A stretch of DNA of 64,000 nucleotides, taken from the NCBI RefSeq assembly GCF_963666255.1, contig NZ_OY762655.1, forward strand, positions 310,001 through 374,000. Reading direction: 5' to 3'. The notes under the pieces were generated by a model that did no database searches, was not told the origin of the DNA, and was given only the letters and a program-made list of their open reading frames with translations. The translations under genes and the position numbers were made by a program. How positions within the stretch are numbered: position 1 is the first letter of the stretch; every line of letters begins with the position of its first letter. This DNA comes from an uncultured Propionivibrio sp. Its GTDB lineage: Bacteria; Pseudomonadota; Gammaproteobacteria; Burkholderiales; Rhodocyclaceae. Positions 7,922-25,308 of the stretch are shown here, one piece after another.

Positions 7922-7957
7922 AAAAACGGCATCGCATCGCGATGCCGTTTTCATTTT
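7922..7957. terminator. Bidirectional rho-independent terminator
   Basis: A perfect 13-base inverted repeat has arms AAAACGGCATCGC (7923-7935) and GCGATGCCGTTTT (7939-7951) with a 3-base loop. T-runs lie on both sides, so it can end transcription of the HAD gene (+) and of the metallophosphoesterase gene (-). The stop codon of the latter lies at the edge of the stem. Confidence 0.8.
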
Positions 7958-8871
7958 GATGGGTGCGAATGCGGCTCGACGCGGAAGAGGGCCGGGTCCT
8001 CGTCGTCGATCGTGATCTTGATCCAGCCGAGAAAGGGATAGCCGAAGGATTCGGCGCGGGTGAAATTCTCGATCCGGCGCGTGCTGCCGGGCACGTAAAG
8101 CGGATGGTCGACGCGCTGCCAGTGCGTGTCGCCGTGCAGCAGCAGGACCTGTCCTGGAAATTTCAACGTCTCGTCGCGCAGCGTCTCGAGCAGTTCGCGG
8201 AACCCGGCATTCGGCAAGCCCTGAGCGAATTCCTTGAAACCGGGATTGGCCTGCATGGCGATGACGATGCCGGCACGCCTCTCCTGGCGGGCGAGGGCGA
8301 AACCCTGTTTGAGCCAGGCGATGACGGCGGGATTGCGGGCGCTGAACTCGGCGGTCGGTGCCTGACCGAGTCCATGGTTGTTGTCCGGCCCCGGTACGTT
8401 CAGCGTGAGCAACAGCAGCGGGCCGTGCCGCCAGCGGACGTGTTCGGAGCGTTCGGAGGACTGGCGTTCGAGCGGGATGCGCTTTTGTCCGAGCGACACG
8501 GGGTCGGCGAAGAAAATCTCTCGCAGTTTCTGCAACCGTTCGAGTTCGTCGAAATGCCCGGCGGGCAGACGTTTGCAATCGGTCCATTCGTTGTCGCCGG
8601 GCAGGTAGATGAAGGGCGAGCGCGAGGCATCGAAGAGCTGGTGGCGATCTCGGAAGAGCTCGTCGCTGCAGCGCGTCTTGCTGTGCTTGAGGTCGCCGAC
8701 GTGAATGACGAAATCCGGCGCTTCGTCATCGATGTCCTCGAGCATGCGCGGGAAGGCGCGGCGCTCGTAATCGCTGTAGGGCGTATCGCCGATCAGCACG
8801 AAGCGCCAGTGGTCGGCCTGCGCCGCGCTCACGGCGATAAACAGTGCGAGCGCGACGAGCAGGCGTCTCAT
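7951..8871 (-). CDS. Secreted metallophosphoesterase
   Basis: 306 residues with a cleavable signal peptide ([19 protein letters not shown], probable cut before DHW), so the protein is probably periplasmic. Calcineurin-like phosphoesterase motifs are visible: IGDTPYSD near the mature N-terminus, [18 protein letters not shown] in the place of the usual GNHE, and LLHGDTHW near the C-terminus. The substrate is unknown. Its ATG overlaps the mutS stop codon (ATGA), so it is probably translated from the mutS transcript, an odd pairing of a cytoplasmic repair protein with an exported hydrolase. Confidence 0.8.
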
Positions 8872-11691: not shown

Positions 11692-13572
11692 ATGAGCACA
11701 TTGTCCGGCGAGGTTTTCTATCCCGATCCTGCGTTTGCATCGCATGCCCAAGACGAGGCCTTGCGTGCTGCGGCGGCTGCCGATCCCGAAGGGTTCTGGG
11801 CGGCGCGGGCGGCCGAGTTGGACTGGTACAAACCCTGGGATAAAGTGCTCGACCGGTCGAATGCGCCGTTCTTCACCTGGTTCACCGGCGGCAGCACGAA
11901 TATCGTGCATAACTGCATCGACCGGCATCTGACCGGTCCGTACAAGAACAAGCTGGCGCTGATCTGGGTCGGCGAGAACGGCATCGATCAGCAGACCTAC
12001 TCTTATTTCAGCCTGAACCGCGAAGTCACGCGCATGGCCAATATCATCAAGGCGATGGGCGTCGGCAAGGGCGACAAGGTGACGATCTACCTGCCGCGCA
12101 TACCCGAAGTGATTTTCGCGATGCTCGCCTGCGCCAAGCTCGGCGCCGTCCATTCGGTGATTTTCGCCGGTTTCTCGGCCGACGCGCTGCAGGATCGCAT
12201 CAGCGATTCGGAATCGAAGCTCGTCATCACCGCCGACGGTTCCTGGGTCAATGGCGGCATCTTCAAGCTCAAGGACATCGTCGATGAGGCGCTACGCTTC
12301 AGTCCGTCGGTGGAAAATGTCATCGTCGTCAAGCGCACCGGCCATGAAGTCGTCATGGACCCGTTGCGTGACCACTGGTACCACGATCTGACCGCCTTGC
12401 CGATTGCCAAGGGCAATTGCCCGACCGAGCCGATGGATGCCGAGGATACGCTGTTCATCCTCTATACCTCGGGCTCGACCGGCAAGCCCAAGGCCATCCT
12501 GCACACGCACGGCGGCTACATGGTCGGTACCTATGCGACGCTTAAATATACTTTCGACATCCGCGACGAGGATCGCTGGTGGTGTACCGCCGATCCCGGC
12601 TGGATCACGGGGCATTCCTACCTCGTTTATGGTCCGCTGCTCACCGGCGCGACGAGCTTCATGTTCGAGGGCGGCCCGACCTATCCGTACCCGAACCGCT
12701 GGTGGCAACTGATCGAATACCACGGCATCACCACGCTTTATACCGCGCCGACGGCGATCCGCCTGCTGATGCGCTTCGGCGACGCCTGGCCGAATCGCCA
12801 CGACCTTTCCAGCCTGCGTCTGCTCGGTTCGGTCGGGGAGCCGATCAATCCGGAAGCATGGCACTGGTTCCACCAGGTCATCGGCCGGGGCAAGTGTCCG
12901 ATCATGGACACCTGGTGGCAGACCGAGACCGGCATGTTCCAGATCTGCCCGACGCCCTCGATGCCCCTCAAACCGGGCTCAGGCGGCAAGCCGTTCTTCG
13001 GGCAGGAAGCCGAGATTCTCGACGAGCAGGGCAATGTCGTCGCCGATGGCGAGGAGGGCTTCCTGGTCCTCAAGAATCCCTGGCCGGCGATGCTCCGGAC
13101 GCTCTACAACGACGATGCGCGCTATGTCCAGACCTACTGGAGCAAGTATCCCGGAAAATACCTGGCCGGCGATTCGGCAAGGCGGGACAAGGACGGCTAT
13201 TTCTGGGTGATCGGCCGGACCGATGACGTCATCAAGGTGTCCGGTCACCGGCTTGGTTCGGCCGAGGTCGAGTCGGCGCTCGTCTCGCATCCGGCGGTCG
13301 CCGAGGCGGCGGCGATCGGTCTGCCGCATGACGTCAAGGGCAATTCGATTCATGTCTTTGTCGTCCTCAAGGTCGGGATCGAGCCGAGTCCGCTGCTGGC
13401 CGAGGAACTGCGCAAGCATGTGTCGGTCCATCTGAGTCCGATCGCCAAGCCGGATGCCATCGACTTTACCGAAAAGCTGCCCAAGACTCGCTCGGGCAAG
13501 ATCATGCGTCGCGTGCTGAAGGCGCGGGCGCAGGGGCTCGACGAGGGCGACCTGACGACGCTGGAATCCTGA
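11692..13572 (+). CDS. acs: Acetyl-CoA synthetase
   Basis: 626 residues of the AMP-forming acyl-CoA synthetase family. The P-loop-like YTSGSTGKPKAILHTHGGY motif, the acetate-pocket region MDTWWQTETG with its Trp, and the C-terminal PKTRSGKIMRR segment, whose Lys is the regulatory acetylation site in Acs proteins, are all present. The enzyme activates acetate to acetyl-CoA through acetyl-AMP. Propionate is a possible alternative substrate, but the WWQTETG context favours acetate. The gene is monocistronic, divergent from mutS and followed by a strong terminator. Confidence 0.92.
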   Translation: MSTLSGEVFYPDPAFASHAQDEALRAAAAADPEGFWAARAAELDWYKPWDKVLDRSNAPFFTWFTGGSTNIVHNCIDRHLTGPYKNKLALIWVGENGIDQQTYSYFSLNREVTRMANIIKAMGVGKGDKVTIYLPRIPEVIFAMLACAKLGAVHSVIFAGFSADALQDRISDSESKLVITADGSWVNGGIFKLKDIVDEALRFSPSVENVIVVKRTGHEVVMDPLRDHWYHDLTALPIAKGNCPTEPMDAEDTLFILYTSGSTGKPKAILHTHGGYMVGTYATLKYTFDIRDEDRWWCTADPGWITGHSYLVYGPLLTGATSFMFEGGPTYPYPNRWWQLIEYHGITTLYTAPTAIRLLMRFGDAWPNRHDLSSLRLLGSVGEPINPEAWHWFHQVIGRGKCPIMDTWWQTETGMFQICPTPSMPLKPGSGGKPFFGQEAEILDEQGNVVADGEEGFLVLKNPWPAMLRTLYNDDARYVQTYWSKYPGKYLAGDSARRDKDGYFWVIGRTDDVIKVSGHRLGSAEVESALVSHPAVAEAAAIGLPHDVKGNSIHVFVVLKVGIEPSPLLAEELRKHVSVHLSPIAKPDAIDFTEKLPKTRSGKIMRRVLKARAQGLDEGDLTTLES

Positions 13573-13668: not shown

Positions 13669-13691
13669 ATTGATAATCAGGGGTTATCAAT
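13669..13691. promoter_or_regulatory. LysR-type operator ATTGAT-N11-ATCAAT (site 1)
   Basis: Arms ATTGAT (13669-13674) and ATCAAT (13686-13691) are separated by exactly 11 bases, and the symmetry extends inward by AA/TT. The same arms with the same spacing occur at 17898-17920, between the LysR gene and the denD-like gene. The site lies about 100 bases upstream of the rpiB-like gene, fitting activation of the rpiB-tpi-dhaKL operon by the LysR protein encoded at 16936-17889. Confidence 0.65.
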
Positions 13692-13790
13692 CCATGCAAT
13701 TCTTTCAGTGCATCGGATCGTGCGGCTTGGTAGGATCGCTGTCGCTCATGCAATTCAATTGAAAACCGATCACACCGAAAGGAAGGCATC

Positions 13791-14249
13791 ATGAGAATAG
13801 CGGTTGCCGGCGATAGCGTTGGCGTGTCTCTTTCCGAAGTCCTGGCAGCCCATCTGGCGACCTGTCCCGGTATCGAGGTCACCGACCTGAGCCGCGCTCC
13901 GGACGGATCCGGCGAGTATTACGCCAACATCGCCGAGCGCGTCGGTCAGGCGATCCTGGCCGGCAAGTTCGATCGCGGCATCCTCTGTTGCGGCACTGGC
14001 ATCGGCATGGCGATCTCGGCCAACAAGGTGCCGGGCATCCGTGCCGCGCAAACGCATGACACTTTCTCGGCCGAGCGCGCCGCCAAGAGCAACGATGCGC
14101 ACATCATTACGCTGGGCGCCCGCGTCGTCGGTACCGAGCTTGCCAAGACGATCGTCAATGCCTGGCTGGCCTCCGATTTCGACCCGCAAGGTCCGTCAGC
14201 GAAGAACGTTGCGGCGATCGGCACGCTCGACGCCAAATATCGGCGCTGA
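13791..14249 (+). CDS. RpiB/LacAB-family sugar-phosphate isomerase (DerI/EryI-like)
   Basis: 152 residues, the usual size of RpiB. The active-site segment [24 protein letters not shown] (Cys66/Cys67 followed by the GTGIG loop) is intact. Members interconvert aldose and ketose phosphates. Beside a TIM-like isomerase and a DhaK-type kinase, the best functional analogy is D-erythrulose 4-phosphate isomerase, making erythrose 4-phosphate (DerI in Mycobacterium smegmatis, EryI in Brucella). Ribose-5-phosphate isomerase remains possible. It is the first gene of the operon, has AAAGGA upstream of its ATG, and follows the LysR-type palindrome. Confidence 0.8.
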
Positions 14250-14315
14250 GTTCGGCACAGCGCCCGGCCGCCGGCTCGGGCGCGTTTTTGGTTCATCCAG
14301 GGGAAATACGCCATC

Positions 14316-15104
14316 ATGCGTCGATTGCTCGCCGGAACCGGCTGGAAGATGAACAACACTGTCGCCGAGACGCGGCGATATGGCGAATGGTTCGCCGAAT
14401 GGACGGCCGGGCGCGCGCTTTCGGCCGTCGATATTTTCGTGCTGCCGCCATTTACCTCTCTGCATGCGGCGGCGACGGCTTTCGCCGGCACGCCGGTGGC
14501 GACCGGCGGTCAGAACATGCACTGGCTCGATTCGGGTGGCTGGACCGGGGAAATCTCGGCACCAATGCTGCTGGAAGCCGGCTGCCGCTACGTCGAACTC
14601 GCGCATTCCGAACGCTTGCAGCATTTCGGCGAGACCTATGACTGTGTTCGTCTCAAGGTCGACGCGGCAATGAAGGTCGGCTTGACGCCGATCATCTGTC
14701 TCGGCGAGAGCGCCAGCGAGAAGGAATCGGGACGTGCCGACGCGGTATTGGCGGAACAGGTGCTGACCTCGCTGGCCGGGCAGCCCGAAGCGGCGACGGC
14801 CGATGTGGTGCTGGCCTACGAGCCGCGCTGGGCGATTGGCGGGGCCGAGGCGGCGACGCCGGAATACATCGCGGCGCGGCACGCGGCCTTGCGCCAGGTA
14901 TTGCGTCAGCATCGCGGCGCGCGCGCGGCCGAGGACACCCGCATCATCTACGGCGGCTCGGTGACGCCGGAGAACGGTAAGGAAATCCTCGCGATCGAGG
15001 ACGTCGACGGGCTCTTCGTCGGGCGCGCCGCGTGGAAACCGGAAGGATTTGCCAGAATCATCGAACTTGTCGCCGAAGCCTCGCGTTTGCGGGCGGCGCG
15101 TTGA
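14316..15104 (+). CDS. Triosephosphate-isomerase-like protein (LerI/EryH-type)
   Basis: 262 residues with a TIM-barrel isomerase signature. The catalytic Lys11 (GWKMN), His97 (ELAHSER) and Glu169 (AYEPRWAIGG) are kept, as is the phosphate-binding IIYGGSVTPEN loop. The canonical N-W-K motif is G-W-K here (Gly9 instead of Asn). From memory, the paralogues that isomerise L-erythrulose 1-phosphate to D-erythrulose 4-phosphate also lack this Asn. Together with the RpiB-like and DhaK-like neighbours this suggests a tetrulose-phosphate isomerase rather than the glycolytic enzyme. The start has CAGGGGAA upstream. Confidence 0.78.
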   Translation: MRRLLAGTGWKMNNTVAETRRYGEWFAEWTAGRALSAVDIFVLPPFTSLHAAATAFAGTPVATGGQNMHWLDSGGWTGEISAPMLLEAGCRYVELAHSERLQHFGETYDCVRLKVDAAMKVGLTPIICLGESASEKESGRADAVLAEQVLTSLAGQPEAATADVVLAYEPRWAIGGAEAATPEYIAARHAALRQVLRQHRGARAAEDTRIIYGGSVTPENGKEILAIEDVDGLFVGRAAWKPEGFARIIELVAEASRLRAAR

Positions 15105-15157
15105 TAGCCCGTTTGCATTGATTTCAACCACATAGAATTCGAACAGGAGGAGAGAAC

Positions 15158-16867
15158 ATGACGTGCATCCATGACGACCCCGAAGTATTCGCAACGACTG
15201 CGTTGGCCGGATTCGCCTCGGTTTATGCCAGAAACGTCCGTCTCGTGACCGGCGGTGTGCTGCGCTCGACGGCGACGCCCGAAGGCAAGGTTGCCGTCGT
15301 CGTCGGCGGCGGTTCGGGACACTATCCGGCTTTCGCCGGCTTCGTCGGTCCGGGCATGGCCGATGCGGCTGTGGCCGGCGATGTCTTCGCCTCGCCGTCG
15401 GCGCACAGCGTTGCGCACGTCACCCGTCTCGCCCATCGCGGCGGCGGCATCCTGCTCGGCTTCGGCAAGTATGCCGGCGACGTGATGAATTTCGGCCTGG
15501 CGGCCGAGCGTTTGCAATCGGAAGGCATTGACGTTCGCATCCTGCCGGTGACCGACGACGTCGCCAGCGGCCCCGCTGACAAGCCCGAACTTCGCCGTGG
15601 CGTGGCCGGCGACCTGGTCGTTTTCAAAATTGTCGGTGCCGCGGCCGAGGCGGGTCTTAAACTCGATGATGTCGAGCGCATTGGCATCAAGGCCAACGCG
15701 CGCACCGTCACCTTCGGCGTCGCCTTTACCGGTTGCACGCTGCCGGGTGCCAAGCAACCGCTGTTCACCGTGCCGGCGCAGCGCATGGGCATCGGCCTCG
15801 GCATTCACGGCGAGCCCGGTATCAGTGAGGACAATGTCCTGCCGGCCAAGGAACTGGCGGCCTTGCTGGTCAATAAGCTGCTGGCCGAACGGCCGGCGAA
15901 CTGCAGCCGCGTCGCGGTCGTGCTGAACGGTTTGGGCTGTACCAAGTACGAAGAACTGTTCGTGCTCTGGGTCGGCATCGAAGCGGTACTGAAGCAGGCG
16001 GGCCTGACGCTGGTCCAGCCCGAGGTGGGCGAATTCGTCACCAGCCTCGACATGGCCGGCTGCTCGTTGACGATCACCTGGCTCGACGAGGAACTTGAGA
16101 AGTTCTGGTGCGCACCGGCCGATACGCCGGTCCTGCGTCGTGGCGCCATCATCCCGACCGAGCCGGCGGCGCCGATTTCCGAGGCGCCGCAGGAGGTTAC
16201 GAGCTTCCCGGCAGCGACGGCGGCATCGCAAGCCAATGGCAAATGCATTGCCGGTCTCATCGCCGAGATTGCCGATGTCATGCGCACTGCCGAGAACGAT
16301 CTCGGTCGCATCGATGCACTGGCGGGCGACGGCGATCATGGCATGGGCATGACGCGTGGTTCGGCGGCTGCGGCCGAAGCAGCCAGGAAAGCCGTCGCGG
16401 CGGGCGCGGGCGCAGCCAGTGTTCTCGCCGCTGCCGGCGATGCCTGGGCCGACCGTGCCGGTGGCACCTCGGGTGCCCTGTGGGGCCTGGCGTTGCGCAC
16501 CTGGAGCACGGTCTTCAGCGATCAGCGCGACGTGACGCCGGCCGATGTTGCCAAGGGCGCGCAAGCGAGTCTCGATGCGGTCAAGCGTCTCGGTCGGGCG
16601 AAGATTGGCGACAAGACGCTGGTCGATGCTTTTGAGCCTTTCGTTGTCACGCTGGGCGAACAGATCGGCAAGGGCGTGGCGCTGAGCGCCGCCTGGAACG
16701 AAGCGGCGCGCGTGTCGACGACCGCCGCCGAGCTGACGGCACAACTGACGCCGAAACTCGGACGGGCGCGTTCGCATACGGCGCGCAGTCTCGGCCATCC
16801 CGATGCTGGCGCCGTTTCGCTGGCGATGTGCGCGCGCACCGTTGGAGCGATCCTCAATCTCTCATGA
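15158..16867 (+). CDS. Dihydroxyacetone/erythrulose kinase, DhaK-DhaL fusion
   Basis: 569 residues. The DhaK domain (about 1-325) carries the GGGSGHYPA motif and His217 (GIHGEPG), which binds the ketose covalently as a hemiaminal. A Pro/Ala-rich linker (about 330-360) leads to the DhaL domain (about 362-567) with the ATP/Mg motif DGDHGMG at 391-397. This is the ATP-dependent single-chain form. Relatives phosphorylate dihydroxyacetone, L- or D-erythrulose, or D-apulose. The two neighbouring isomerases favour a tetrulose. An AGGAGGAGAG ribosome binding site precedes the ATG. It is the last gene of the operon, before a strong terminator. Confidence 0.85.
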   Translation: MTCIHDDPEVFATTALAGFASVYARNVRLVTGGVLRSTATPEGKVAVVVGGGSGHYPAFAGFVGPGMADAAVAGDVFASPSAHSVAHVTRLAHRGGGILLGFGKYAGDVMNFGLAAERLQSEGIDVRILPVTDDVASGPADKPELRRGVAGDLVVFKIVGAAAEAGLKLDDVERIGIKANARTVTFGVAFTGCTLPGAKQPLFTVPAQRMGIGLGIHGEPGISEDNVLPAKELAALLVNKLLAERPANCSRVAVVLNGLGCTKYEELFVLWVGIEAVLKQAGLTLVQPEVGEFVTSLDMAGCSLTITWLDEELEKFWCAPADTPVLRRGAIIPTEPAAPISEAPQEVTSFPAATAASQANGKCIAGLIAEIADVMRTAENDLGRIDALAGDGDHGMGMTRGSAAAAEAARKAVAAGAGAASVLAAAGDAWADRAGGTSGALWGLALRTWSTVFSDQRDVTPADVAKGAQASLDAVKRLGRAKIGDKTLVDAFEPFVVTLGEQIGKGVALSAAWNEAARVSTTAAELTAQLTPKLGRARSHTARSLGHPDAGAVSLAMCARTVGAILNLS

Positions 16868-16898
16868 CAAAAGCGTAGTACGCGAACCTGTCCGTGGC

Positions 16899-16933
16899 GG
16901 GGTTGCAGCAGATGCTGCAGCCCCGATTTTTTT
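16899..16933. terminator. Rho-independent terminator between dhaKL and lysR
   Basis: Inverted repeat of 12 bases with one G-T pair (GGGGTTGCAGCA at 16899-16910 and TGCTGCAGCCCC at 16913-16924), followed on the + strand by seven T at 16927-16933. It ends the rpiB-tpi-dhaKL operon and lies next to the stop codon of the converging LysR gene. Confidence 0.85.
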
Positions 16934-16935
16934 GC

Positions 16936-17889
16936 CTAGGGGCTGGGCTCGCGGTTCTTCAGGAAGTAGAGAAATTCCTCGGCGATCGGGCTGACCGTCC
17001 GGTCGCGATGGACGAGGCTGCCCCAGGGCGTCAGCGTGTGCGTGAATTCGTAGGGAATGATGCGCAACAGGCTGTGCGCCTCGTAATGGCGTGCGATCGA
17101 GTGCGGGATGACGGCGATCATGTCGCTGTGGGCGATCAGGCTTTCGGCGAGCAGGATCGAGGTCGTTTCGATCAACCCCTGCGGCAGCGGCAGGTGGTGG
17201 CTGCGCGCCTCCTGCTCGATCATCTCGCGCGAAGGGCTGCCGCGCGGTTGCAGGATCCAGGTATAGGCCAGCAACGCCGAGAAACTGATGGCGCCTTCGC
17301 GTGCCTGGTACTGCAGGGGATGGTCGCGCGAGGCGACAACCGAGATCGCTTCTTCGCCGATCGCATGAAAGACGCAGTCATGGCTTTCGACGCTGGCGAT
17401 GTCGGGCATCCGCCCGATCATGACATCGAGTTTGCCGTTGCGGAGCAGGTCGAGCAGGCGGTCACTGGTGTCGACGATGACTTCCACGGAGAGCAGCGGG
17501 AAGCGCTGCTTGAGACGGATCAGCGCGTCGGCCAGCAGGTCGGGCGCGGCGACCATGATGCTGCCGACGATCAGCTTGCCGGCGCTGCCGAGCCGCAGTT
17601 CGTTGAGCTCGCGGCTGAGCGCGGTCATATTGCTGCTGATGGCGCGGAAAGTGTTCATGACGGCCTGTCCGGCCGCGTTCAACTGCATGCCGCGGCCGAC
17701 GCGGTCGAACAGGGGCTCGCCGAGCGTTTGCTCGAGTTCGTGCAGCATCTTGCTGGCGGCGGGTTGCGAGAGGCCGATATGCTCGGCGGCGTGGTGCAGC
17801 GTCCGGTGTTCGTGAATCGCCAGCATCAGGACGATCTGGCGCATGCGCAGGCGATTGAGCAGTTGGGGGGTGAAGCCGGAATGCGTCAT
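16936..17889 (-). CDS. LysR-family regulator of the sugar regulon
   Basis: About 317 residues. The helix-turn-helix is at roughly 15-70 (TLHHAAEHIGLSQPAASKMLHELEQTLG), followed by the effector domain. The pattern is that of the GbpR/GalR-like branch often linked to sugar and aromatic acid genes. I prefer the ATG at 17889 to an upstream in-frame TTG at 17919, which falls inside the palindrome. It lies between two catabolic operons, converging with the kinase gene and diverging from the denD-like gene. The ATTGAT-N11-ATCAAT sites upstream of both operons make it the probable common regulator. Confidence 0.85.
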   Translation of the reverse strand: MTHSGFTPQLLNRLRMRQIVLMLAIHEHRTLHHAAEHIGLSQPAASKMLHELEQTLGEPLFDRVGRGMQLNAAGQAVMNTFRAISSNMTALSRELNELRLGSAGKLIVGSIMVAAPDLLADALIRLKQRFPLLSVEVIVDTSDRLLDLLRNGKLDVMIGRMPDIASVESHDCVFHAIGEEAISVVASRDHPLQYQAREGAISFSALLAYTWILQPRGSPSREMIEQEARSHHLPLPQGLIETTSILLAESLIAHSDMIAVIPHSIARHYEAHSLLRIIPYEFTHTLTPWGSLVHRDRTVSPIAEEFLYFLKNREPSP

Positions 17890-17897
17890 GGTCGGTG

Positions 17898-17920
17898 ATT
17901 GATAACCTGAAGAGATCAAT
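17898..17920. promoter_or_regulatory. LysR-type operator ATTGAT-N11-ATCAAT (site 2)
   Basis: Arms ATTGAT (17898-17903) and ATCAAT (17915-17920) with an 11-base spacer, the same arms and spacing as at 13669-13691. The site starts 9 bases upstream of the LysR ATG, a typical autoregulatory position, within the 183-base divergent region that also serves the denD-like gene. A wider pair, TGATAAC and GTTATCA, spans 17899-17943. Confidence 0.65.
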
Positions 17921-18072
17921 ATATCAAATAGTTTCAGTTATCAGTAGTTGATCACCTTGCTACGATCCTTTCGACAGTACCTGAACTGCATAGCGAGAAT
18001 TCTTTCCGCGTCGTAAAGGCCTGTGGTCGAGGGGCGTGGATACCGGTTTCCATCAAACTATCCGAGGACATT

Positions 18073-19047
18073 ATGAAAGTACTGATTACCGGCGGGGGCG
18101 GCTTTCTTGGCGGGCGATTGGCCCAGGCCCTGCTCAAGCGGGGCACGCTCGCTGATGCCAATGGCATACAGCGGGAGATCACGCAGATTTCCTTGCTCGA
18201 CATCACGTTCCCGGCACAGGACGATTCGCGTCTCAAGTACGTCTGCGGCGATCTCACCGATCCGGCTTTGCTCAGCACGCTGATCGGGCCGGAAACGACC
18301 TCGGTCTTCCATCTGGCATCGATCGTCAGCGGCGGTGCCGAGGCCGACTTCGAGCTTGGCATGCGCGTCAATCTCGATGGCACGCGCGCTGTCATGGAGG
18401 CCTGCCGCAAGCAGGCTCGCGTGCCGCGCTTCATCTTCTCCAGTTCGGTGGCTGCCTTCGGGTACGGATTCCCCCCTGTGGTTGATGACAATGTCGTCGC
18501 GCTGCCGCTTAACTCCTACGGTGCCCAGAAGGTCTGCTGCGAATATCTGATCAACGATTACAGCCGGCGCGGTTTCATCGACGGACGCGTCCTGCGCCTG
18601 CCGACGATTTCAGTGCGTCCGGGCAAACCCAATCTCGCCAAGTCTTCCTATGCATCAGGCATTATTCGTGAGCCGCTCAACGGCGTTCCCGCGCGCTGCC
18701 CGGTGACGCGTGACACCGGCATCTGGATCCTGTCGCCGGGCAAGGTCATCGATGCGATGATTCACGCCCATGACTTGCCGGCCTCGGCCTGGGGCGTCAA
18801 TCGCGTCCTCAATCTCTGCGGTACGACGGCGACTGCCGGTGAAATGGTCGACGCGCTGCGCAGGATTGCCGGGGACAGTGTCGCGAATCTCGTCGAGTGG
18901 GCCCCGGACGAAGACATCCAGGCCTTCATCGACAGCCTGCCGGTGCGTTTCAAGACCAATCGCGCGCTGATGATGGGATTCGTCGCCGACAAGGACGTCG
19001 ATACGATCATTCGCGATTACATTGCCGACCAGGGTATTCCGGTTTAG
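18073..19047 (+). CDS. NAD-dependent epimerase/dehydratase-family dehydrogenase (DenD-like)
   Basis: 324 residues of an extended SDR. The NAD-binding ITGGGGFLGGRLA (residues 5-17), FSSSVAAFG with the catalytic Ser (about 124), and the Tyr149-x3-Lys153 pair (YGAQK) are intact. The segment LPTISVRPGKPN followed by SSYASGIIREP is the pattern I associate with D-erythronate dehydrogenase (DenD) and close relatives. A 4-carbon sugar or sugar acid is therefore a reasonable substrate, but no 3-oxotetronate kinase (OtnK) or decarboxylase (OtnC) gene accompanies it here. It is the first gene of the operon divergent from lysR. Confidence 0.75.
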   Translation: MKVLITGGGGFLGGRLAQALLKRGTLADANGIQREITQISLLDITFPAQDDSRLKYVCGDLTDPALLSTLIGPETTSVFHLASIVSGGAEADFELGMRVNLDGTRAVMEACRKQARVPRFIFSSSVAAFGYGFPPVVDDNVVALPLNSYGAQKVCCEYLINDYSRRGFIDGRVLRLPTISVRPGKPNLAKSSYASGIIREPLNGVPARCPVTRDTGIWILSPGKVIDAMIHAHDLPASAWGVNRVLNLCGTTATAGEMVDALRRIAGDSVANLVEWAPDEDIQAFIDSLPVRFKTNRALMMGFVADKDVDTIIRDYIADQGIPV

Positions 19048-19079
19048 GCGAACATCATTTCAACGGACGAGGAAACAGA

Positions 19080-20027
19080 ATGACTCAGGAATGCTGCAAC
19101 ACGCCGCGCTGGAACCGCGACAACTGGCCGATCGCGGCGGCCATGATCAATTTCCCCGGCGTCCTGCCGAACGGATCGCTGGTCCAGGAGCAGTCCGTCG
19201 ATCAATGGGCCGAGACGCTGCAGCAGGTCGTCGATGCCGGCTTTACCGAGCTCGATCCGACCGACAGCTGGCTGCGTGTCGCCGATCTTTCGCCGTCCCG
19301 TTTGCGCGAGTTTCAGTATGTCGTCAAGACGCTCGGGCTGACGATCCCGGCGATTTCGACGACGCGGCGCAGCAGCGTCATCGATCCGGATCACGCCGAC
19401 GAATATCTTGCCTACAACCACCGCGTCATCGAGACGGCGGCGGCAATCGGCGCCAAGGCTGTCAGTTTCGGATTGTTCGGGCAGTTTACCGAGGAGCAGA
19501 AAAAGCGGCTGTGGTTCTGGACGGCCGAAGGCGTCAAGAATCCCGATGATGCCGCGACCTACCAGAAGGCGGTGACGCGCATCCGCGAACTCGGCAAGCA
19601 TGCCGCCGAATACGGTATCGAGGTCTCGCTCGAGATGTACGAGGATACCTATATCGGCACGGCCGACGGGGCGGTGCGTTTCGTCAATGACGTCGATGTG
19701 CCTTCGGTCGGGATCAATGCCGACATCGGCAATCTGGTGCGTCTGCACAAGCCGGTCGAGCACTGGTCGGCGATGATCGACAAGATCGTCCCTTACGCAA
19801 AATACTGGCACGTCAAGAACTACATGCGCATCGAGGATCCGGACCGGGGCATCTATTTGTCGTATCCGACCTCGCTGGCGCTCGGCATCATCAACTACCG
19901 GATTGCCGTTCAGAAAGCCATCGCCAGCGGCTTCAAGAGCGCCTTCCTGTGCGAGCACTACGGCGGCGACGGTCTGACCGTCTGTGGCATGAACCGCGAA
20001 TACCTGAGAACGATTTTGCCGCGCTGA
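19080..20027 (+). CDS. Xylose-isomerase-like TIM-barrel sugar isomerase/epimerase
   Basis: 315 residues. The metal-ligand pattern of AP-endonuclease-2/xylose-isomerase-like barrels is visible: Glu in VSLEMYEDT, Asp in INADIGNL, His in YWHVKNY and Glu in FLCEHYGGDG. Such proteins isomerise or epimerise free or phosphorylated sugars and include OtnI and hydroxypyruvate isomerases, but this one is longer than OtnI. ACGAGGAAACAGA upstream of the ATG gives the ribosome binding site. It lies 32 bases after the denD-like gene, so the two probably act in sequence. The substrate is unknown. Confidence 0.72.
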   Translation: MTQECCNTPRWNRDNWPIAAAMINFPGVLPNGSLVQEQSVDQWAETLQQVVDAGFTELDPTDSWLRVADLSPSRLREFQYVVKTLGLTIPAISTTRRSSVIDPDHADEYLAYNHRVIETAAAIGAKAVSFGLFGQFTEEQKKRLWFWTAEGVKNPDDAATYQKAVTRIRELGKHAAEYGIEVSLEMYEDTYIGTADGAVRFVNDVDVPSVGINADIGNLVRLHKPVEHWSAMIDKIVPYAKYWHVKNYMRIEDPDRGIYLSYPTSLALGIINYRIAVQKAIASGFKSAFLCEHYGGDGLTVCGMNREYLRTILPR

Positions 20028-20029
20028 CG

Positions 20030-20062
20030 GGCGGCGCCCCAGGGGCGCCGCCGCAGATTTTT
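20030..20062 (+). terminator. GC-rich hairpin with short T-run after the isomerase gene
   Basis: Perfect 11-base arms (GGCGGCGCCCC at 20030-20040, GGGGCGCCGCC at 20042-20052) around a single A, followed by GCAG and TTTTT at 20058-20062. It resembles an intrinsic terminator or a partial attenuator between the enzyme genes and the TRAP transporter genes. dctP follows 55 bases later. Confidence 0.6.
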
Positions 20063-20116
20063 CGCGCGCGCGTCCCGTTTGCCATTGATCCACAAATCTA
20101 GAACAAGGAGCTGGTC

Positions 20117-21136
20117 ATGTCTTTCGCATCAAAGGGAATGGTTGGCCTGGCGGCGGCTGCCGTCATGGCATGCTTCGCCTCGGGCGCCCTGGCGCAGAAC
20201 GCGACAGAGCGTAATATCCGCCTCGGTCATGGTATTGCCGCCGAACATCCGCTCGGACAGGCCTCGGTGAAATTCGCGGAGATCATGGATCGTCTGAGCG
20301 GCGGGAAATTCAAGATCAAGGTCTTTCCGGCGACCCAGCTAGGATCCGAGACACAGATGATCGCGGCGGTCCGTGGCGGCGTCCAGGAGATCACCATCGT
20401 CGCGTCGGCGCCGGTCGCGACGATCATCAAGGAATACATGCTGTTCGATTTGCCTTTCCTGTTCCAGAACGAAAAGGAAGTCGATGCGGTGCTCGACGGC
20501 AAGCTCGGCCAGCGCCTGCTTGATCTCGCCGAATCGAAGAACATGATCGGCCTGTGCTACTGGGAAAACGGCTTCCGCCAGGTGACCAACAGCAAGCGCC
20601 CGGTCGCCAGCATGGAAGACATGTCGGGCCTCAAGCTGCGGGTCATGCAGAACCCGGTGTACATCGATGCCTTCAAGGCGCTCGGTACCAACGCGATTCC
20701 GATGCCCTTCACCGAACTCTATTCGGCGATGGAGTCGAAGGCGATCGACGCGCAGGAAAATCCGGTGCCGATCATTTATGCCAGCAAGTTCCATGAGGTG
20801 CAGAAGTATCTCAGTCTGACCAACCACGCCTATGCGCCGTATGTCGTGCTGGTCAGCAAGGGCTTCTGGGACAAGCTCGACGCCAAGGAAAAGGACCAGC
20901 TGAAGGCCGGATGCTATGAGGGACGCACCTATCAGCGCAACCTCAACCGCAAGATGACGACCGAGCTGGTCGACAAGCTCAAGAGCGAAGGTATGACGGT
21001 CAGCGTGATTCCGCCGGCCGAAGCGGCGAAGATGCGCGACAAGCTGAAGCCGGTGATCGAGCGGTACACGCAGGACATCGGTCCGTCGGTTGTCGAGCAG
21101 GCGCAGAAGGAAATCGCTGCCGTTCGCGGTCGCTGA
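20117..21136 (+). CDS. dctP: TRAP transporter substrate-binding protein (DctP family)
   Basis: 339 residues with a signal peptide ending ALA-QN (cleavage after about residue 26). The mature protein has the DctP fold signature: IRLGHGIAAEHPLGQASVKFAE at the N-terminus, GLKLRVMQNPVY with the conserved Arg that binds the carboxylate of acid ligands in most family members, and the GTNAIPMPFTELYSAMESKAIDAQENP hinge segment. It delivers substrate to DctQM. The Arg suggests an acidic ligand such as an aldonate. An AAGGAG ribosome binding site precedes the ATG. A large stem-loop follows the gene. Confidence 0.9.
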   Translation: MSFASKGMVGLAAAAVMACFASGALAQNATERNIRLGHGIAAEHPLGQASVKFAEIMDRLSGGKFKIKVFPATQLGSETQMIAAVRGGVQEITIVASAPVATIIKEYMLFDLPFLFQNEKEVDAVLDGKLGQRLLDLAESKNMIGLCYWENGFRQVTNSKRPVASMEDMSGLKLRVMQNPVYIDAFKALGTNAIPMPFTELYSAMESKAIDAQENPVPIIYASKFHEVQKYLSLTNHAYAPYVVLVSKGFWDKLDAKEKDQLKAGCYEGRTYQRNLNRKMTTELVDKLKSEGMTVSVIPPAEAAKMRDKLKPVIERYTQDIGPSVVEQAQKEIAAVRGR

Positions 21137-21148
21137 TAGTGCCGTTAC

Positions 21149-21192
21149 ACGGCCTCGTCTTTCGCTGCTTATCAGGCGAAGGATGAGGCCGT
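21149..21192 (+). repeat. Intercistronic stem-loop between dctP and dctQ
   Basis: A 17-pair stem has arms at 21149-21165 (starting ACGGCCTC) and 21176-21192 (ending GAGGCCGT) with a 10-base loop. Two of the pairs are G-T. There is no T-run after it. Stems of this kind behind binding-protein genes usually protect the upstream mRNA and cause the binding protein to be made in excess over the membrane subunits. Confidence 0.6.
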
Positions 21193-21278
21193 TCCGGTCA
21201 TGCAATTCGAGTTGGCGAGGAGTTCGAAAGGGCTCGGAGGATCGCTTTCGAATGACGTCATAAGCGGGGGAATGTGAA

Positions 21279-21779
21279 ATGCTTGGGAAACTGATAAAGC
21301 TGGTCGAATGGATTCTGGTGGGGATGTTCGGCATCATGGCGGTGCTGGTGTTCGGGAACGTGGTGCTGCGGTATGGATTCAATTCGGGGATCGTGTTTTC
21401 GGAGGAAGTGTCGCGTTTCTTTTTCATGTGGCTGACGCTGATCGGGGCCTTGATCGTGATGAAGGATCACGGGCATCTGGGGATGAGCAGCGTGGTCGAG
21501 AAGTTTGGTGAGCGTGGGCAGCGTATCTGCCGGTTCCTTGCCGATTCGCTGACGCTGATCTGTTGCCTGCTGCTGGCGCACGGGACCTGGAAGCAGATGA
21601 TCATCGGCATGGACGACCATGCGCCGGTGACCGGCATTCCGATGGGGATCGTCCAGTCGGCATTGTTCATTTCGAGCGTCGGCATGGCGCTGGTGCTCGG
21701 TTACGGGATCTGGCGGCAACTGACGGGCCGGATGCCGAAGGAAGAGCTGATTCCGTACAGCGGCAGCGTTGGCGAATAA
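21279..21779 (+). CDS. dctQ: TRAP transporter small membrane subunit (DctQ family)
   Basis: 166 residues with four predicted membrane helices (about 10-33, 45-65, 86-106 and 128-150) and the conserved VLRYGFNSGIVFSEEVSRFFFMWLTLIGA segment of DctQ proteins. It forms the membrane part of the sodium-driven TRAP importer with DctM. It lies 142 bases after dctP, with a stable stem-loop between them, and has GGGGGAATG upstream of its ATG. dctM follows 15 bases later. Confidence 0.88.
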   Translation: MLGKLIKLVEWILVGMFGIMAVLVFGNVVLRYGFNSGIVFSEEVSRFFFMWLTLIGALIVMKDHGHLGMSSVVEKFGERGQRICRFLADSLTLICCLLLAHGTWKQMIIGMDDHAPVTGIPMGIVQSALFISSVGMALVLGYGIWRQLTGRMPKEELIPYSGSVGE

Positions 21780-21794
21780 GCGGAGAAGACGACC

Positions 21795-23078
21795 ATGACC
21801 ATTGCGACTTTTCTCTTCTCCCTGCTGGGCGCGATGGCGCTCGGTGCGCCGATCGCCTTCTCGCTGCTGATCTGCGGCGTTGCGCTGATGCTGCAGATGG
21901 ACAACTTCGACACGCAGATCATTGCGCAGAATCTGCTCGAAGGCGCCAACAACTATCCGCTGATGGCGGTGCCTTTCTTCATGCTGACCGGCGAGCTGAT
22001 GAATGCCGGCGGTCTTTCCAAGCGCATTGTCGAAGTGGCCGACGCGCTGATTGGTCACGTGCGCGGCGGTCTCGGTTATGTCGCGATCATCACGGCGGCG
22101 GTGGTGGCCAGTATCTCGGGGTCGGCGGTGGCCGATACCGCGGCGGTGGCGGCCCTGCTGATTCCGATGATGCGCAATGCCGGCTACAGTGTGCCGCGTT
22201 CGGCCGGTCTGATTGCTTCGGCGGGGTGTATCGCGCCGGTGGTGCCGCCGTCGATTCCGCTGGTTGTCTTTGGCGTGACGACGCAGCTGTCGATCACCAA
22301 GCTGTTCATGGCCGGTATTTTCCCGGGGCTGATGATGGCGGTGACGCTGGCGGTGACCTGGTGGCTGGTGGCGAAGAAGGAGCAGCCGGGCGGACCGGCT
22401 CAGCGCGGCTTCGAGCTGGGGCGTTTCCTGACGGCCTTGCGCAACGGCATCTGGGCGCTGGTTCTGCCGTTTGTCATCATCGGCGGGATGAAGGCGGGCG
22501 TGTTCACGCCGACCGAAGCGGCGGTCGTTGCCGTCTTCTATTCTCTCTTCACCGGTCTTTTCGTCTATCGCGAACTCGATTACCGGAGGGTGCCGCACCT
22601 GATGCTGTCGGCGTTGAAGACGTCCTGCACGATCATGTTCCTGGTCGCCTGCGCGATGGTCTCGGCATGGCTGATCACGATCGCGGACATTCCGGCGCAG
22701 ACGATCGAGCTGCTCAAGCCGTTCATGGGCAACCAGATGGTGCTGATGCTGGTGATCACGATCCTGGTGATCATCGTCGGGACGGCGCTGGACCTGATCC
22801 CGACGGTGCTGATCCTCGGTCCGATCCTGGTGCCGGTGGTGAAGATGGCGGGGATCGATCCGTACTACTTCGGCGTGCTGTTCATCATGAACAATGCCAT
22901 CGGCCTGCTGACGCCGCCGGTCGGGACGGTGCTCAACGTCGTGGCGGCGGTCGGCAAGGAGAAACTCGACAACGTCATCAAGGGCGTCTGGCCTTTTCTG
23001 CTCGCCGAGACCGTGCTGATGTTCCTGCTCGTCTTCTTCCCCAAACTCGTCACCGTGCCGGCCAAGTGGCTGTCATAG
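21795..23078 (+). CDS. dctM: TRAP transporter large membrane subunit (DctM family)
   Basis: 427 residues and about a dozen hydrophobic segments. The family signature is clear: LMAVPFFMLTGELMNAGGLSKRIVEVADALIGHVRGGLGYVAIITAAVVASISGSAVADTAAVAALLIPMM is split across two helices with the conserved Ser/Gly-rich loop, and the C-terminal half has NNAIGLLTPPVGTVLNV. It is the ion-coupled translocation channel. It is the last gene of the transporter set. Confidence 0.92.
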   Translation: MTIATFLFSLLGAMALGAPIAFSLLICGVALMLQMDNFDTQIIAQNLLEGANNYPLMAVPFFMLTGELMNAGGLSKRIVEVADALIGHVRGGLGYVAIITAAVVASISGSAVADTAAVAALLIPMMRNAGYSVPRSAGLIASAGCIAPVVPPSIPLVVFGVTTQLSITKLFMAGIFPGLMMAVTLAVTWWLVAKKEQPGGPAQRGFELGRFLTALRNGIWALVLPFVIIGGMKAGVFTPTEAAVVAVFYSLFTGLFVYRELDYRRVPHLMLSALKTSCTIMFLVACAMVSAWLITIADIPAQTIELLKPFMGNQMVLMLVITILVIIVGTALDLIPTVLILGPILVPVVKMAGIDPYYFGVLFIMNNAIGLLTPPVGTVLNVVAAVGKEKLDNVIKGVWPFLLAETVLMFLLVFFPKLVTVPAKWLS

Positions 23079-23160: not shown

Positions 23161-23955
23161 ATGTTTTCGGATTTCGTCCTGATCGCGGTGGCGGCGCTGG
23201 CCGCCGGTTTCGTTAATGCGATTGCCGGCGGCGGCACCTTTTTCAGTTTTCCGGCCTTCGTCGCCGCCGGTGTTCCGCCGGCGCTGGCGAGCGCGTCGAA
23301 TAATGTCGGCTTGTGGCCGGGCAACGGTATGGCGGCCTTCGCCTATCGTCGCGAACTCTGGGCGGTGCGTGCGCACCTGCCGTTCCTGTCGGTCGTGACC
23401 CTGGCGGGCAGCACGGCCGGTGCCGGTCTCCTGTACTGGATCGGTAATGACGGTTTCGCCCGATTGTTGCCAGCGCTTGTCGTCTTCGCGACGGCGCTGT
23501 TCGCTTATGCCGAACAAATCCGGGCCTGGGTGCTGCGTATCGCGCAACGCCAGACGTCGGGTGCCGGGCCGCGTCCCGGTGGGTCGCTTGCCTCGGCGCT
23601 GGGGCTGGGCATCGTCGCTGTCTATGGCGGTTTCTTCGGCGGCGGCGTCAACCTGATGGTGCTCGCCAGCCTCAGTCTGATGGGCTACCGCGATATCCAA
23701 CAGACGAATGCCATCAAGAATTATCTTGCCGTGCTGATTATCGCCAGTGTCTTCGCCGTCTTTATCGTTCAGGGCGGTATCGCCTGGGGGCAGACGCTCG
23801 TCTGCGCCGTCGGCGCAATGACGGGCGGATATGTCGGTGCCAGCGTTGCCAAGAAAATGCCGGTGGGCTGGTTGCGCGGCATGGTGATTTTCGTCGGTAT
23901 CGCGCTGACCGTGATCTACACCTGGCAGTACTGGATCAAGCCAGCGCTGGCTTGA
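23161..23955 (+). CDS. TSUP (TauE/SafE, DUF81) family permease
   Basis: 264 residues with about eight hydrophobic segments. The duplicated family motif appears as GFVNAIAGGGTFFSFPAF (about 16-33) and GIVAVYGGFFGGGVNLMVLASL (about 152-173). TSUP proteins export sulfite, sulfoacetate or related organic anions; the substrate is not evident here. It lies 82 bases downstream of dctM on the same strand, so it could belong to the sugar regulon, or it could be independent because a hairpin lies between. Its start lacks a good ribosome binding site. Confidence 0.82.
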   Translation: MFSDFVLIAVAALAAGFVNAIAGGGTFFSFPAFVAAGVPPALASASNNVGLWPGNGMAAFAYRRELWAVRAHLPFLSVVTLAGSTAGAGLLYWIGNDGFARLLPALVVFATALFAYAEQIRAWVLRIAQRQTSGAGPRPGGSLASALGLGIVAVYGGFFGGGVNLMVLASLSLMGYRDIQQTNAIKNYLAVLIIASVFAVFIVQGGIAWGQTLVCAVGAMTGGYVGASVAKKMPVGWLRGMVIFVGIALTVIYTWQYWIKPALA

Positions 23956-23970: not shown

Positions 23971-25308
23971 TCAGCCCGGCAGGCGTTGGTCGACACTGTT
24001 GGCGAGCGTTTTCAGCGCCGGCGCGATATCGACGGGGTAGGGCGTTGTTGTGTCGAGGCTGCGGCAGCTTTCCGGCAGGCGCGCGAGTTGCGTTTGGGCG
24101 TCGTCGCGCAGTTGCGCCAGCGTTGCCTGCGCTGCCGTCCGCCGACCGTCGCGCATGACGCATTCGAGCAGCGGCGTACCGGCCGGGGCGTCGCCCTCGA
24201 GGGTCAGCGTATCGCCGCACATGCGTCCATCGCCGTCGTAGCGGCGATAGACCTGTTTGCGTCCCGGCCAGCTGGCCTTGCCTTCGGAGCGCTTGCGCCG
24301 CGCTGCGCCGGCGTATTCCTGCAGCTTGTACGCGCATTCGAGGTAGGGGCAGTCGTCCGAGGTGTTCATGCGTGTGCCGATGCCGAAGCCGTCGATCGGT
24401 GCGCGGTCGGCGCGCAGGCGGCGCACGGCGTATTCGTCGAGGTTGCCGCTGGCGAAGATATGCACGTCCTTGAGACCGCCGTCATTGAGAATGGCGCGCA
24501 CACGCGCGGCGTTCTGGCCGAGGTCGCCACTGTCGATGCGTACCGCCTGCAGGCGGATGTTGCGTGCGGCGAGGCGGCCTGCCAGCGGGATGATGGCGCG
24601 GGCGGCGGCGTCGATGTCATAGGTGTCGATCAGCAGTGTCGTGGCGCGCGGATGCGAGAGCGAGAAGTTCTCGAAGGCCTCGCTTTCGTCTTCGTGCGCC
24701 TGAATGAACGAATGCGCCATCGTGCCGAAGAGCGGAATGTCCCACTGCATGCCGGCGAGGACGTTGGCGGTGCCGTTGAAGCCGGCCAGATAGCTGGTGC
24801 GCGCCGAGAGCATGCCGGCTTCGGCGCCGTGGGCCCGGCGGAGGCCGAAGTCGACGAGCAGGGCCTCGGGTGCGACCAGTCGTGTGCGCGCGGCCTTGGT
24901 GGCGATCAGTATCTGGAATTGCAGCAGGTTGATGATGCGCGTTTCAACGAGTTGGGCCTCGCGCAGTGGCGCGACGACGCGCAGGATCGGTTCGTTGGCG
25001 AAAAACGGCGTGCCTTCCGGCATCGCCCAGACTTCGCCGGAAAAGCGGAAGTCGCGGAGCGTGGTGACGAATTCAGGCGTGAATCGGCCGCTCTTCGCCA
25101 GCCAGTCCAGTTCTTCAGGCGTGAAATGCACGGTCTCAAGATAATCGAGTACCTGTGCGAGGCCGGCGGCGAGCAGGAAATTGCGATTGTCGGGCAGGCG
25201 GCGGACGAAGAACTCGAAGACGGCGGTGTCGTTCATGCTGTGGTCATCGTAGGCCTGCAGCATGGTCAGTTGATAGAAGTCGGTGAGGAGGACGCTTTGG
25301 TCGTTCAT
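23971..25308 (-). CDS. pncB: Nicotinate phosphoribosyltransferase
   Basis: 445 residues. LLTDFYQLTMLQAY at the N-terminus, the catalytic His199 region FGTMAHSFIQAHEDE and the phosphoribosyl-binding segments (RIDSGDLG, IFASGNLDE, GFGIGTRMNTS) identify PncB. The enzyme makes nicotinate mononucleotide from nicotinate and PRPP in the Preiss-Handler branch of NAD salvage. Its ATG overlaps the pncA stop codon (ATGA), so both steps of the pathway are translationally coupled. Confidence 0.93.
   Translation of the reverse strand: MNDQSVLLTDFYQLTMLQAYDDHSMNDTAVFEFFVRRLPDNRNFLLAAGLAQVLDYLETVHFTPEELDWLAKSGRFTPEFVTTLRDFRFSGEVWAMPEGTPFFANEPILRVVAPLREAQLVETRIINLLQFQILIATKAARTRLVAPEALLVDFGLRRAHGAEAGMLSARTSYLAGFNGTANVLAGMQWDIPLFGTMAHSFIQAHEDESEAFENFSLSHPRATTLLIDTYDIDAAARAIIPLAGRLAARNIRLQAVRIDSGDLGQNAARVRAILNDGGLKDVHIFASGNLDEYAVRRLRADRAPIDGFGIGTRMNTSDDCPYLECAYKLQEYAGAARRKRSEGKASWPGRKQVYRRYDGDGRMCGDTLTLEGDAPAGTPLLECVMRDGRRTAAQATLAQLRDDAQTQLARLPESCRSLDTTTPYPVDIAPALKTLANSVDQRLPG

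Follow-up and report, generated by a model that had tools for sequence, protein, structure and literature searches.

How does a dehydrogenase of the D-erythronate type come to stand beside three enzymes of tetrulose-phosphate metabolism, and which compound would such a combination degrade? The question is raised by a gene cluster of about 9.4 kb in a 64,000-nucleotide stretch of DNA (G000:C1:310001-374000, here called the window) from the 3.99 Mb genome of an uncultured Propionivibrio sp. We propose that the cluster is a LysR-controlled sugar-acid regulon, which most likely converts a five-carbon (C5) aldonate to erythrulose and CO2 and erythrulose further to erythrose 4-phosphate, and we put the probability of this proposal at about one in two. 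Observed directly are the family-level identities of the proteins, the position of the isomerase LerI outside the clade of triose-phosphate isomerases (TPIs), an operator shared by two transcription units, the co-occurrence of a xylose-isomerase-like (XI-like) barrel protein with the kinase LerK and the interchangeable dehydrogenases beside that barrel. The five carbons of the acid, the L form of erythrulose and the loss of CO2 at the barrel step, be it through isomerization first, through decarboxylation or through both, are what we infer.

According to this proposal, the tripartite ATP-independent periplasmic (TRAP) system DctPQM would import the sugar acid, most likely a five-carbon aldonate, and the DenD-like dehydrogenase would oxidize a secondary alcohol of the acid to give a keto acid. 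The metal-dependent barrel would make or use a 3-oxo (beta-keto) acid and release CO2, yielding erythrulose, which LerK would phosphorylate at C1. A carbonyl shift by LerI would then yield D-erythrulose 4-phosphate, to be converted by DerI to D-erythrose 4-phosphate, which would enter the pentose phosphate pathway. An acid of five carbons is suggested because the way from an acid to a C4 ketose should require the loss of one carbon. The genes form two plus-strand units, derI-lerI-lerK and denD-barrel-dctP-dctQ-dctM, with lysR on the minus strand between them:

13670..13690, before derI: putative LysR operator, perfect palindrome TTGATAA-N7-TTATCAA, TTGATAATCAGGGGTTATCAA (0 of 100 shuffles)
13791-14249, plus strand: derI, RpiB/LacAB family (NF051858; motif CCGTGIG)
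14316-15104, plus strand: lerI, triose-phosphate-isomerase-like (TIM-like; best PDB match 11ef, TPI equivalog below cut-off, tree)
15158-16867, plus strand: lerK, DhaK-DhaL kinase, proposed L-erythrulose kinase (PF02733 and PF02734)
16936-17889, minus strand: lysR, LysR regulator, divergent from denD (PF00126 and PF03466)
17899..17919, lysR-denD intergenic region: second putative LysR operator, TTGATAACCTGAAGAGATCAA
18073-19047, plus strand: denD, DenD-like extended short-chain dehydrogenase/reductase (SDR; NF043036)
19080-20027, plus strand: XI-like barrel (PF01261), which as a proposed 3-oxo-acid decarboxylase or isomerase/decarboxylase would yield erythrulose
20117-21136, plus strand: dctP, TRAP solute-binding protein (family model matches)
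21279-21779, plus strand: dctQ, TRAP small permease (family match)
21795-23078, plus strand: dctM, TRAP large permease (family match)
23161-23955, plus strand: TauE/SafE-type membrane protein (PF01925), about 80 bases after dctM

All of the genes that the first-pass annotation had named in these 9.4 kb are open frames where it had placed them, and each matches its family. Signature motifs were located in LerK (GIHGEPG in DhaK, GDGDHG in DhaL), the TIM-like protein (WKMN, HSER and YEP), DerI (CCGTGIG), the SDR (Y149xxxK) and DctP (LRVMQN); the functional roles of these signature residues, as of those of the barrel, are presumed.

The probable L-erythrulose module and the barrel protein

Judged by sequence comparison, a tetrulose-phosphate back end of the cluster is well supported, and it resembles the L-erythrulose module formed by LerK, LerI and DerI. 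The DerI protein scores above the cut-off of the D-erythrulose-4-phosphate isomerase equivalog NF051858 (243.6 bits, cut-off 240) and below that of the rpiB equivalog (110 bits, cut-off 138.65). The TIM-like protein stays under the cut-off of the main TPI equivalog (275.7 bits, cut-off 293); its closest PDB match is the L-erythrulose-1-phosphate isomerase 11ef, with 215.8 bits against 182.6 for the best TPI, and the two have in common the stretches QNMHW and GRxAW, which are absent from two aligned TPIs. The genome has two TIM genes, and in a tree of 23 rows, which included its own TpiA, two PDB TPIs, 11ef and rhizobial LerI, this TpiA and the PDB TPIs form a clade with support of 100/99 that excludes the window protein; the latter lies within a set of 10 rows, starred in the tree, with support of 98/96. 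That LerI is an extra TpiA is rejected on the ground of this position outside the TpiA clade. LerK falls below the glycerone kinase cut-off, has both the DhaK and the DhaL motifs and shares 53% identity with the kinase that an Erwinia operon of the ApnO/OiaC type encodes, and we propose from this sequence that it acts on L-erythrulose. The reactions of LerK, LerI, DerI and EryC and their use in Escherichia coli, including a rescue test of a tktA tktB strain for LerI/DerI, are covered by PMC10733421, in the part cited here. The tetrulose-phosphate back end of the first-pass annotation is thus upheld, and its question of whether the isomerases belong inside the TpiA and RpiB clades is answered by the tree for the TIM-like protein and by the model scores, which set DerI apart from rpiB.

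The barrel protein is 98% identical to its homologue in Propionivibrio dicarboxylicus DSM 5885 and matches, with 305 bits over nearly its entire length, the PDB entry 5tnv, a magnesium-bound XI-like barrel of Mycobacterium smegmatis whose title gives no reaction; the predicted structure (predicted local distance difference test, pLDDT, 84.1; predicted template modelling score, pTM, 0.85) gave a Foldseek E of 7e-34 with this entry. Residues E185, D215, H244 and E292 are invariant in 23 of 23 aligned barrel rows, the window included, and are likely to be the metal ligands. As to the reaction, hhalign placed OiaC-like barrels closest among three families (E 9.5e-6 over 208 columns, with OtnI at 0.0089 and EryC at 0.093), a comparison weakened by the unequal depth of the profiles (5, 2 and 4 sequences). 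Only two of the five OiaC-like rows, from Erwinia and Pantoea, belong to operons with a PGDH_C gene, and the EryC sequences came from rhizobial ery-type loci. We take the barrel of the Erwinia operon to be OiaC, a name that no NCBIfam model gave.

Closer assignments of the barrel were tried and rejected. The gene assignments of the first-pass annotation stand at the family level. A reading of the barrel as OtnI or hydroxypyruvate isomerase does not hold, as the protein matched none of the models for these enzymes, NF043033 included, at E 0.001, and the profile match to OtnI is weak. EryC was dismissed at a BLAST E of 2.2 and a profile E of 0.41 for the single sequence and, as given above, 0.093 for the family, and a close OiaC at a BLAST E of 1.8, the likeness to OiaC-like proteins being a remote one between profiles. 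Because the profile comparison ranks OiaC-like barrels above OtnI and EryC, with the caveats given, a decarboxylating role for the barrel is favoured here, and isomerase-decarboxylase and 3-epimerase are live alternatives.

Further evidence comes from the partners of the barrel in other genomes. One scan of GTDB species-genome contigs gave 531 confirmed matches to the barrel family, the best 80 of which were kept as loci; counts refer to flanks of up to 9 kb and to fixed score thresholds, the full flank being unavailable in 21 of the 80, and genes in high-GC loci were read from stop-to-stop frames and marker searches. LerK is present in 70 of the 80 loci, TctA in 59, DerI in 13 and LerI in 11. 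A PdxA-type dehydrogenase is found in 63 loci and DenD in 12, never both, and neither in five, namely L023 and L024, whose contigs measure 6.8 and 6.0 kb, L055, where the barrel is the last gene before the locus ends, L044 and L093. The usual gene order in rhizobia is GntR, PdxA, TctCBA, barrel, LerK; in Sinorhizobium meliloti 1021, which also has PdxA-like and LerK genes, the barrel is encoded on pSymB (NC_003078.1, 1560393-1561331). On a Streptomyces plasmid (L014), the barrel, LerK and a DerI-like gene have an LtnD-like enzyme and a GntP-like permease in their neighbourhood, and two loci from one family of the window's class (L152 and L154) have LysR, a gluconate-type GntP and the barrel followed by a 3-hydroxyacyl-CoA-dehydrogenase-like enzyme, relatives of which occur in L080, L090, L095 and L157 (about 54% identity) and in L026 (32%). 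Judged from these neighbourhoods, the dehydrogenase families are interchangeable beside the barrel. PdxA, the 3-hydroxyacyl-CoA/L-gulonate-type enzymes and the beta-hydroxyacid dehydrogenases oxidize a beta-hydroxyl, L-gulonate 3-dehydrogenase being, as we take it, a member of the 3-hydroxyacyl-CoA dehydrogenase-like family.

The link between barrel and LerK is also seen across whole genomes. In a sample of 398 Pseudomonadota genomes, 5 carry the barrel and 11 carry LerK, which none of the 5 lacks; once our own genome is left out, the figures become 4 of 4 versus 10 of 397 (hypergeometric 2e-7), three of the four belonging to one family. The 15 genus relatives searched for LerK divide into five with both genes, one with the barrel only, none with LerK only and nine with neither (Fisher 0.002), and in the barrel-only relative (G232) the contig ends inside the barrel (L104). 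Since G234 and G241 carry barrel and LerK on separate contigs, the link is not one of proximity alone. Across 229 genomes of the class, the barrel was found in our own genome only. A front end of the DenD type joined to a tetrulose-phosphate back end, a mixture that had already been remarked on at first inspection, is real and recurs in other genomes. Among the open-licence papers listed, screened by titles and abstract openings, we recognized none describing this gene combination; for tetrose uptake, the authors of PMC12780249, in the part cited here, expect transporters and kinases that by their account had not been reported.

Several side observations concern these genes. A second tetrulose-like cluster of the genome (L107, G000:C3:331000-346500) holds DctPQM, an XI-like barrel of 285 amino acids, DhaK, DhaL, a DerI-type isomerase (75%), an isopropylmalate/tartrate-dehydrogenase-like enzyme and a GntR-like gene, and a third DerI-type isomerase, 83% identical to the window copy, lies at 8455-8910 of L109 (G000:C1:1117000-1134500), where GntR and class II aldolase genes are weakly matched nearby. 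Proteins that combine a SAF domain with a DRL catalytic domain (PF21135, tested in L018) recur beside loci with PdxA, TctABC and the barrel, in 8 of the 80, and were located at 15120-16517 in L018, 6462-7862 in L141 and 8168-9538 in L159; in L156 (4428-11111) such a gene is in line with the barrel, and the genome's own copy is at C1:818161-819537, about 0.49 Mb from the cluster. DRL presumably stands for DXR-like, and the protein is possibly a hydroxymethyl-migrating oxidoisomerase.

Control, dehydrogenase and importer

Both units are very probably under the control of the cluster's LysR protein, as judged from the sequence of their upstream regions, because the operator is shared by both, is rare in the genome and is sited before derI and at LysR genes. 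When the two upstream regions are compared without gaps, their best 40-base match has 28 identical positions, compared with a maximum of 27 among 919 random stretches of the window. The pattern TTGATAA-N9-ATCAA occurs at four sites in the genome, both cluster sites included, and its reversed control at none. A looser pattern, searched in 16 loci, gave seven matches, all of them either just ahead of derI or at a LysR gene's 5' end; the window and a same-species copy account for four, and two are one genome counted twice. The open reading frame list starts lysR at a TTG at 17919; the ATG at 17889 is preferred from the sequence, and with the start moved there the operator lies outside the gene. 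This shared operator bears out the word regulon in the first-pass annotation.

The DenD-like SDR passes the D-erythronate dehydrogenase model NF043036 (433.6 bits, cut-off 325) and is 50% identical to a second, canonical DenD of the same genome; its PDB matches are headed by 2hrz, with SDR-type L-threonine 3-dehydrogenases among later ones. The canonical DenD belongs to a complete tetronate operon on contig C3 (L108, G000:C3:401000-418500) that comprises LtnD, DctP, DctQ, DctM, OtnK, OtnC, OtnI and DenD, its five enzymes all scoring above their cut-offs. OtnK and OtnC had no match among the ten cluster proteins, the genome's copies being those in L108. That the cluster is an ordinary D-erythronate pathway is rejected in view of this complete second operon and of the missing OtnI, OtnK and OtnC. 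The DctQ proteins of the two loci are 100% identical and the DctQM DNA is 99.7% identical over 1816 bp (5 mismatches), a likeness that we read from the alignments as a recent duplication or gene conversion confined to the permease, DctP and DenD having diverged. Because the canonical operon is complete elsewhere, the window cluster appears to be a front end made of paralogues, its permease being shared, rather than an erythronate pathway. In a DenD tree of 23 rows, the barrel-linked DenDs fall in two separate clades, which may mean that the native oxidation at C2 is used and that the barrel shifts the 2-oxo to a 3-oxo acid before CO2 is lost.

The best PDB match of DctP is 7bbr, a protein that we take to be CxaP. 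CxaP binds C5/C6 sugar acids, and the part of PMC12076931 cited here lists its ligands and describes a conserved arginine of TRAP proteins that binds the carboxylate. In the window, DctP, DctQ and DctM are all present and this arginine was located by the motif LRVMQN; under our proposal, the ligand would be a C5 aldonate. Near barrels in other genomes, the importers are TRAP, TctABC, GntP and D-galactonate-type major facilitator superfamily (MFS) proteins, homologues of the last being found in 8 of the 80 loci. An SMP-30 lactonase is present in two of the 80 (L026, Acidisoma, and L080, Brytella), and L026 and L090 were confirmed to encode periplasmic binding proteins of the ribose type. By their family assignments, these importers, lactonases and binding proteins suit aldonates, or aldoses oxidized via the lactone, and the substrate is probably an aldonate. 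In the acetobacterial DenD-barrel loci L080, L090, L095 and L098, genes for a flavin mononucleotide-dependent alpha-hydroxyacid dehydrogenase (LldD-like) and a D-galactonate-type MFS protein recur.

These results bear on the substrates suggested in the first-pass annotation. A C4 polyol is at odds with the TRAP, TctABC, GntP and D-galactonate-type MFS neighbours, which indicate an acid, and a C4 aldonate with ordinary chemistry, by which its oxidation cannot yield a C4 ketose, as well as with the separate full tetronate operon of the genome. The apiose or apionate alternative found no backing either, as no ApnO-like or OiaC-like gene was detected in the 80 loci at BLAST thresholds, at which a distant OiaC could escape. 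A C5 aldonate that loses CO2 fits better than any of these.

The TauE/SafE-type gene after dctM probably extends the second operon; a gene of this type also follows LerK in a Rhizobium ruizarguesonis locus (L015, 12679-13407). Two genes whose names were given by eye flank the cluster: one resembling acetyl-CoA synthetase (11692-13572) and, in convergent orientation, one resembling nicotinate phosphoribosyltransferase (23971-25308).

Alternative routes

Several points weigh against a route from a C5 aldonate through L-erythrulose. DerI exceeds its equivalog cut-off by only 3.6 bits, and in the TIM tree 11ef clusters with rhizobial LerI, outside the starred set of the window protein, the forks between groups being weak (82/79) and long branches flagged. 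The unequal profile depth already mentioned counts here too, and the XI-like barrel of L107 gives a profile E of 2.3e-5, about as good as that of the OiaC-like family. DenD is known to oxidize C2, not C3. DctP shares 59% identity and the pocket motif with its counterpart in the tetronate operon of the genome, against 44% identity with CxaP, figures that cannot separate C4 from C5 acids; because it is nearer the tetronate DctP, a C4 acid is possible at the transport step. LerK is near the barrel in just 4 of the 12 DenD-type loci, one of these kinases being 36% identical, although the two genomes searched among the eight loci without a nearby LerK (those of L020 and L022) both carry it elsewhere. 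In L143, LerK, DenD and TRAP genes stand together with no adjoining barrel; the order there is LysR-DctP-x-LerK-DenD-DctQM, where x is a 359-amino-acid protein (7285-8361) that matched no NCBIfam or Pfam model. Finally, all support for the pathway is drawn from sequence.

Among the other explanations, it seems unlikely, but worth serious attention, that the barrel is a tetrulose 3-epimerase, resembling EryC or D-tagatose 3-epimerase, that inverts C3 to provide LerI with the L form; upstream of it, either a beta-keto acid would lose CO2 spontaneously to give D-erythrulose, or LerK would make D-erythrulose 1-phosphate. After 5tnv, the next Foldseek matches are UlaE and D-tagatose 3-epimerases, a result that tells against a decarboxylating barrel, although the identity is just about 15%, and the weak NCBIfam matches of the barrel to D-psicose 3-epimerase and L-ribulose-5-phosphate 3-epimerase lose force in that the OiaC-like protein gives the same weak matches to the latter. 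EryC carries out such a step before LerI and DerI according to the cited part of PMC10733421, but likeness to EryC is lacking in the window barrel by both BLAST and profile, as described above. It is improbable that the cluster instead degrades a C4 acid, in which case DenD would form a 2-oxo-tetronate, the barrel would stand in for OtnI, LerK would act on the 3-oxo-tetronate, decarboxylation would give dihydroxyacetone phosphate (DHAP) and the TIM-like protein would be an accessory triose-phosphate isomerase. The DenD equivalog score, the permease shared with the tetronate operon, the 59% identity of DctP and the presence of DenD beside barrels in two separate DenD clades would all be in line with this; yet one operon of the genome already combines LtnD, DctPQM, OtnK, OtnC, OtnI and DenD, OtnK is absent from the cluster, LerI lies outside the TpiA clade, and DerI would have no role even though it is in the same operon, here and in relatives.

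A branched C5 acid, similar to apionate, would be a rather improbable substrate. Here, the dehydrogenase and barrel would replace ApnO and OiaC, and migration of a hydroxymethyl group followed by CO2 loss would give L-erythrulose. A back end of the LerK/LerI/DerI type does occur in Erwinia and Pantoea operons whose other genes encode PGDH_C and XI-like barrel proteins, the window and OiaC-like barrels are remotely alike, and SAF/DRL proteins accompany some of the barrels, in L156 in line with one; against this, ApnO-like and OiaC-like genes were found in none of the 80 loci at BLAST thresholds, the PdxA-, LtnD- and 3-hydroxyacyl-CoA-dehydrogenase-type enzymes are better suited to linear hydroxy acids, and the SAF gene of the window genome lies far from the cluster. 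Very improbable is a tetritol route in which the SDR would oxidize erythritol or threitol to erythrulose, the barrel having a side activity. LerK, LerI and DerI are indeed tetritol-pathway enzymes in the cited part of PMC10733421; no EryA- or EryB-type family is found among the ten cluster proteins, however, and the importers of barrel loci are of the acid type or, where a locus also has a lactonase or further aldonate genes, sugar ATP-binding cassette (ABC) systems.

Returning to the C5 aldonate, a more general reading is tentative and, on balance, doubtful: the barrel family, a widespread one for which we came across no assigned function, would be a beta-keto-aldonate decarboxylase that defines a common trunk from pentonate through erythrulose to erythrose 4-phosphate. 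Dehydrogenases from four or more unrelated families (DenD-like SDR, PdxA-like, LtnD-like and 3-hydroxyacyl-CoA-dehydrogenase-like) might then feed this trunk, as might TRAP, tripartite tricarboxylate transporter (TTT), GntP, MFS or ABC importers, and it might replace the pentonate dehydratase routes. If true, this would assign a role to a conserved family whose structure has been solved (5tnv), and a CO2-releasing pentonate route would end in erythrose 4-phosphate rather than in 2-oxoglutarate or pyruvate. Proteins labelled D-erythronate dehydrogenase or PdxA beside the barrel would then be likely mis-annotations of enzymes acting on longer acids.

Comparison with known systems

The D-apionate pathway, reportedly described by Carter et al. 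in 2018 with ApnO, OiaC, LerK, LerI and DerI, resembles the proposed route in its LerK/LerI/DerI-type back end, in an XI-like barrel accompanied by a dehydrogenase and a kinase, and in taking in an acid and giving out L-erythrulose. The apionate-type form of the operon is present in Erwinia sp. E602 and Pantoea sp. At-9b. The window differs in having a DenD-like SDR and not PGDH_C (PF16896, the ApnO family, had no match among the ten cluster proteins), a TRAP and not an MFS importer, and a barrel that is similar only remotely, by profile. A locus on a plasmid of Aestuarium zhoushanense (L163, CP021116.1) with TRAP, SDR, transketolase subunits, an OiaC-like barrel, dihydroxyacetone kinase, RpiB and TIM genes has a similar layout made of different parts. 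Genes for two-subunit transketolases stand beside OiaC-like, LerK/LerI/DerI or DenD-barrel loci in L162, L163, L153, L155 and L020, and perhaps these enzymes are a sink for erythrulose or erythrose 4-phosphate.

With the D-erythronate/L-threonate pathway, said to have been worked out by Zhang et al. in 2016 with LtnD, DenD, OtnI, OtnK and OtnC, the cluster has the DenD family and the TRAP permease in common; it is without OtnI, OtnK and OtnC and would end in a tetrulose phosphate rather than in DHAP. Tetritol catabolism, reportedly described for Mycolicibacterium smegmatis by Huang et al. in 2015 and known in a related form from Brucella and rhizobia, provides the counterparts of the back end in LerK (M. 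smegmatis), LerI/EryH and DerI/EryI, while EryA, EryB and EryC are absent from the cluster, which has an acid importer. For single proteins, the window DctP is like CxaP (7bbr) in the RVMQN motif and at the 44% identity given above, though nearer its own tetronate-operon paralogue, and it is the M. smegmatis barrel 5tnv that the window barrel resembles over nearly its whole length.

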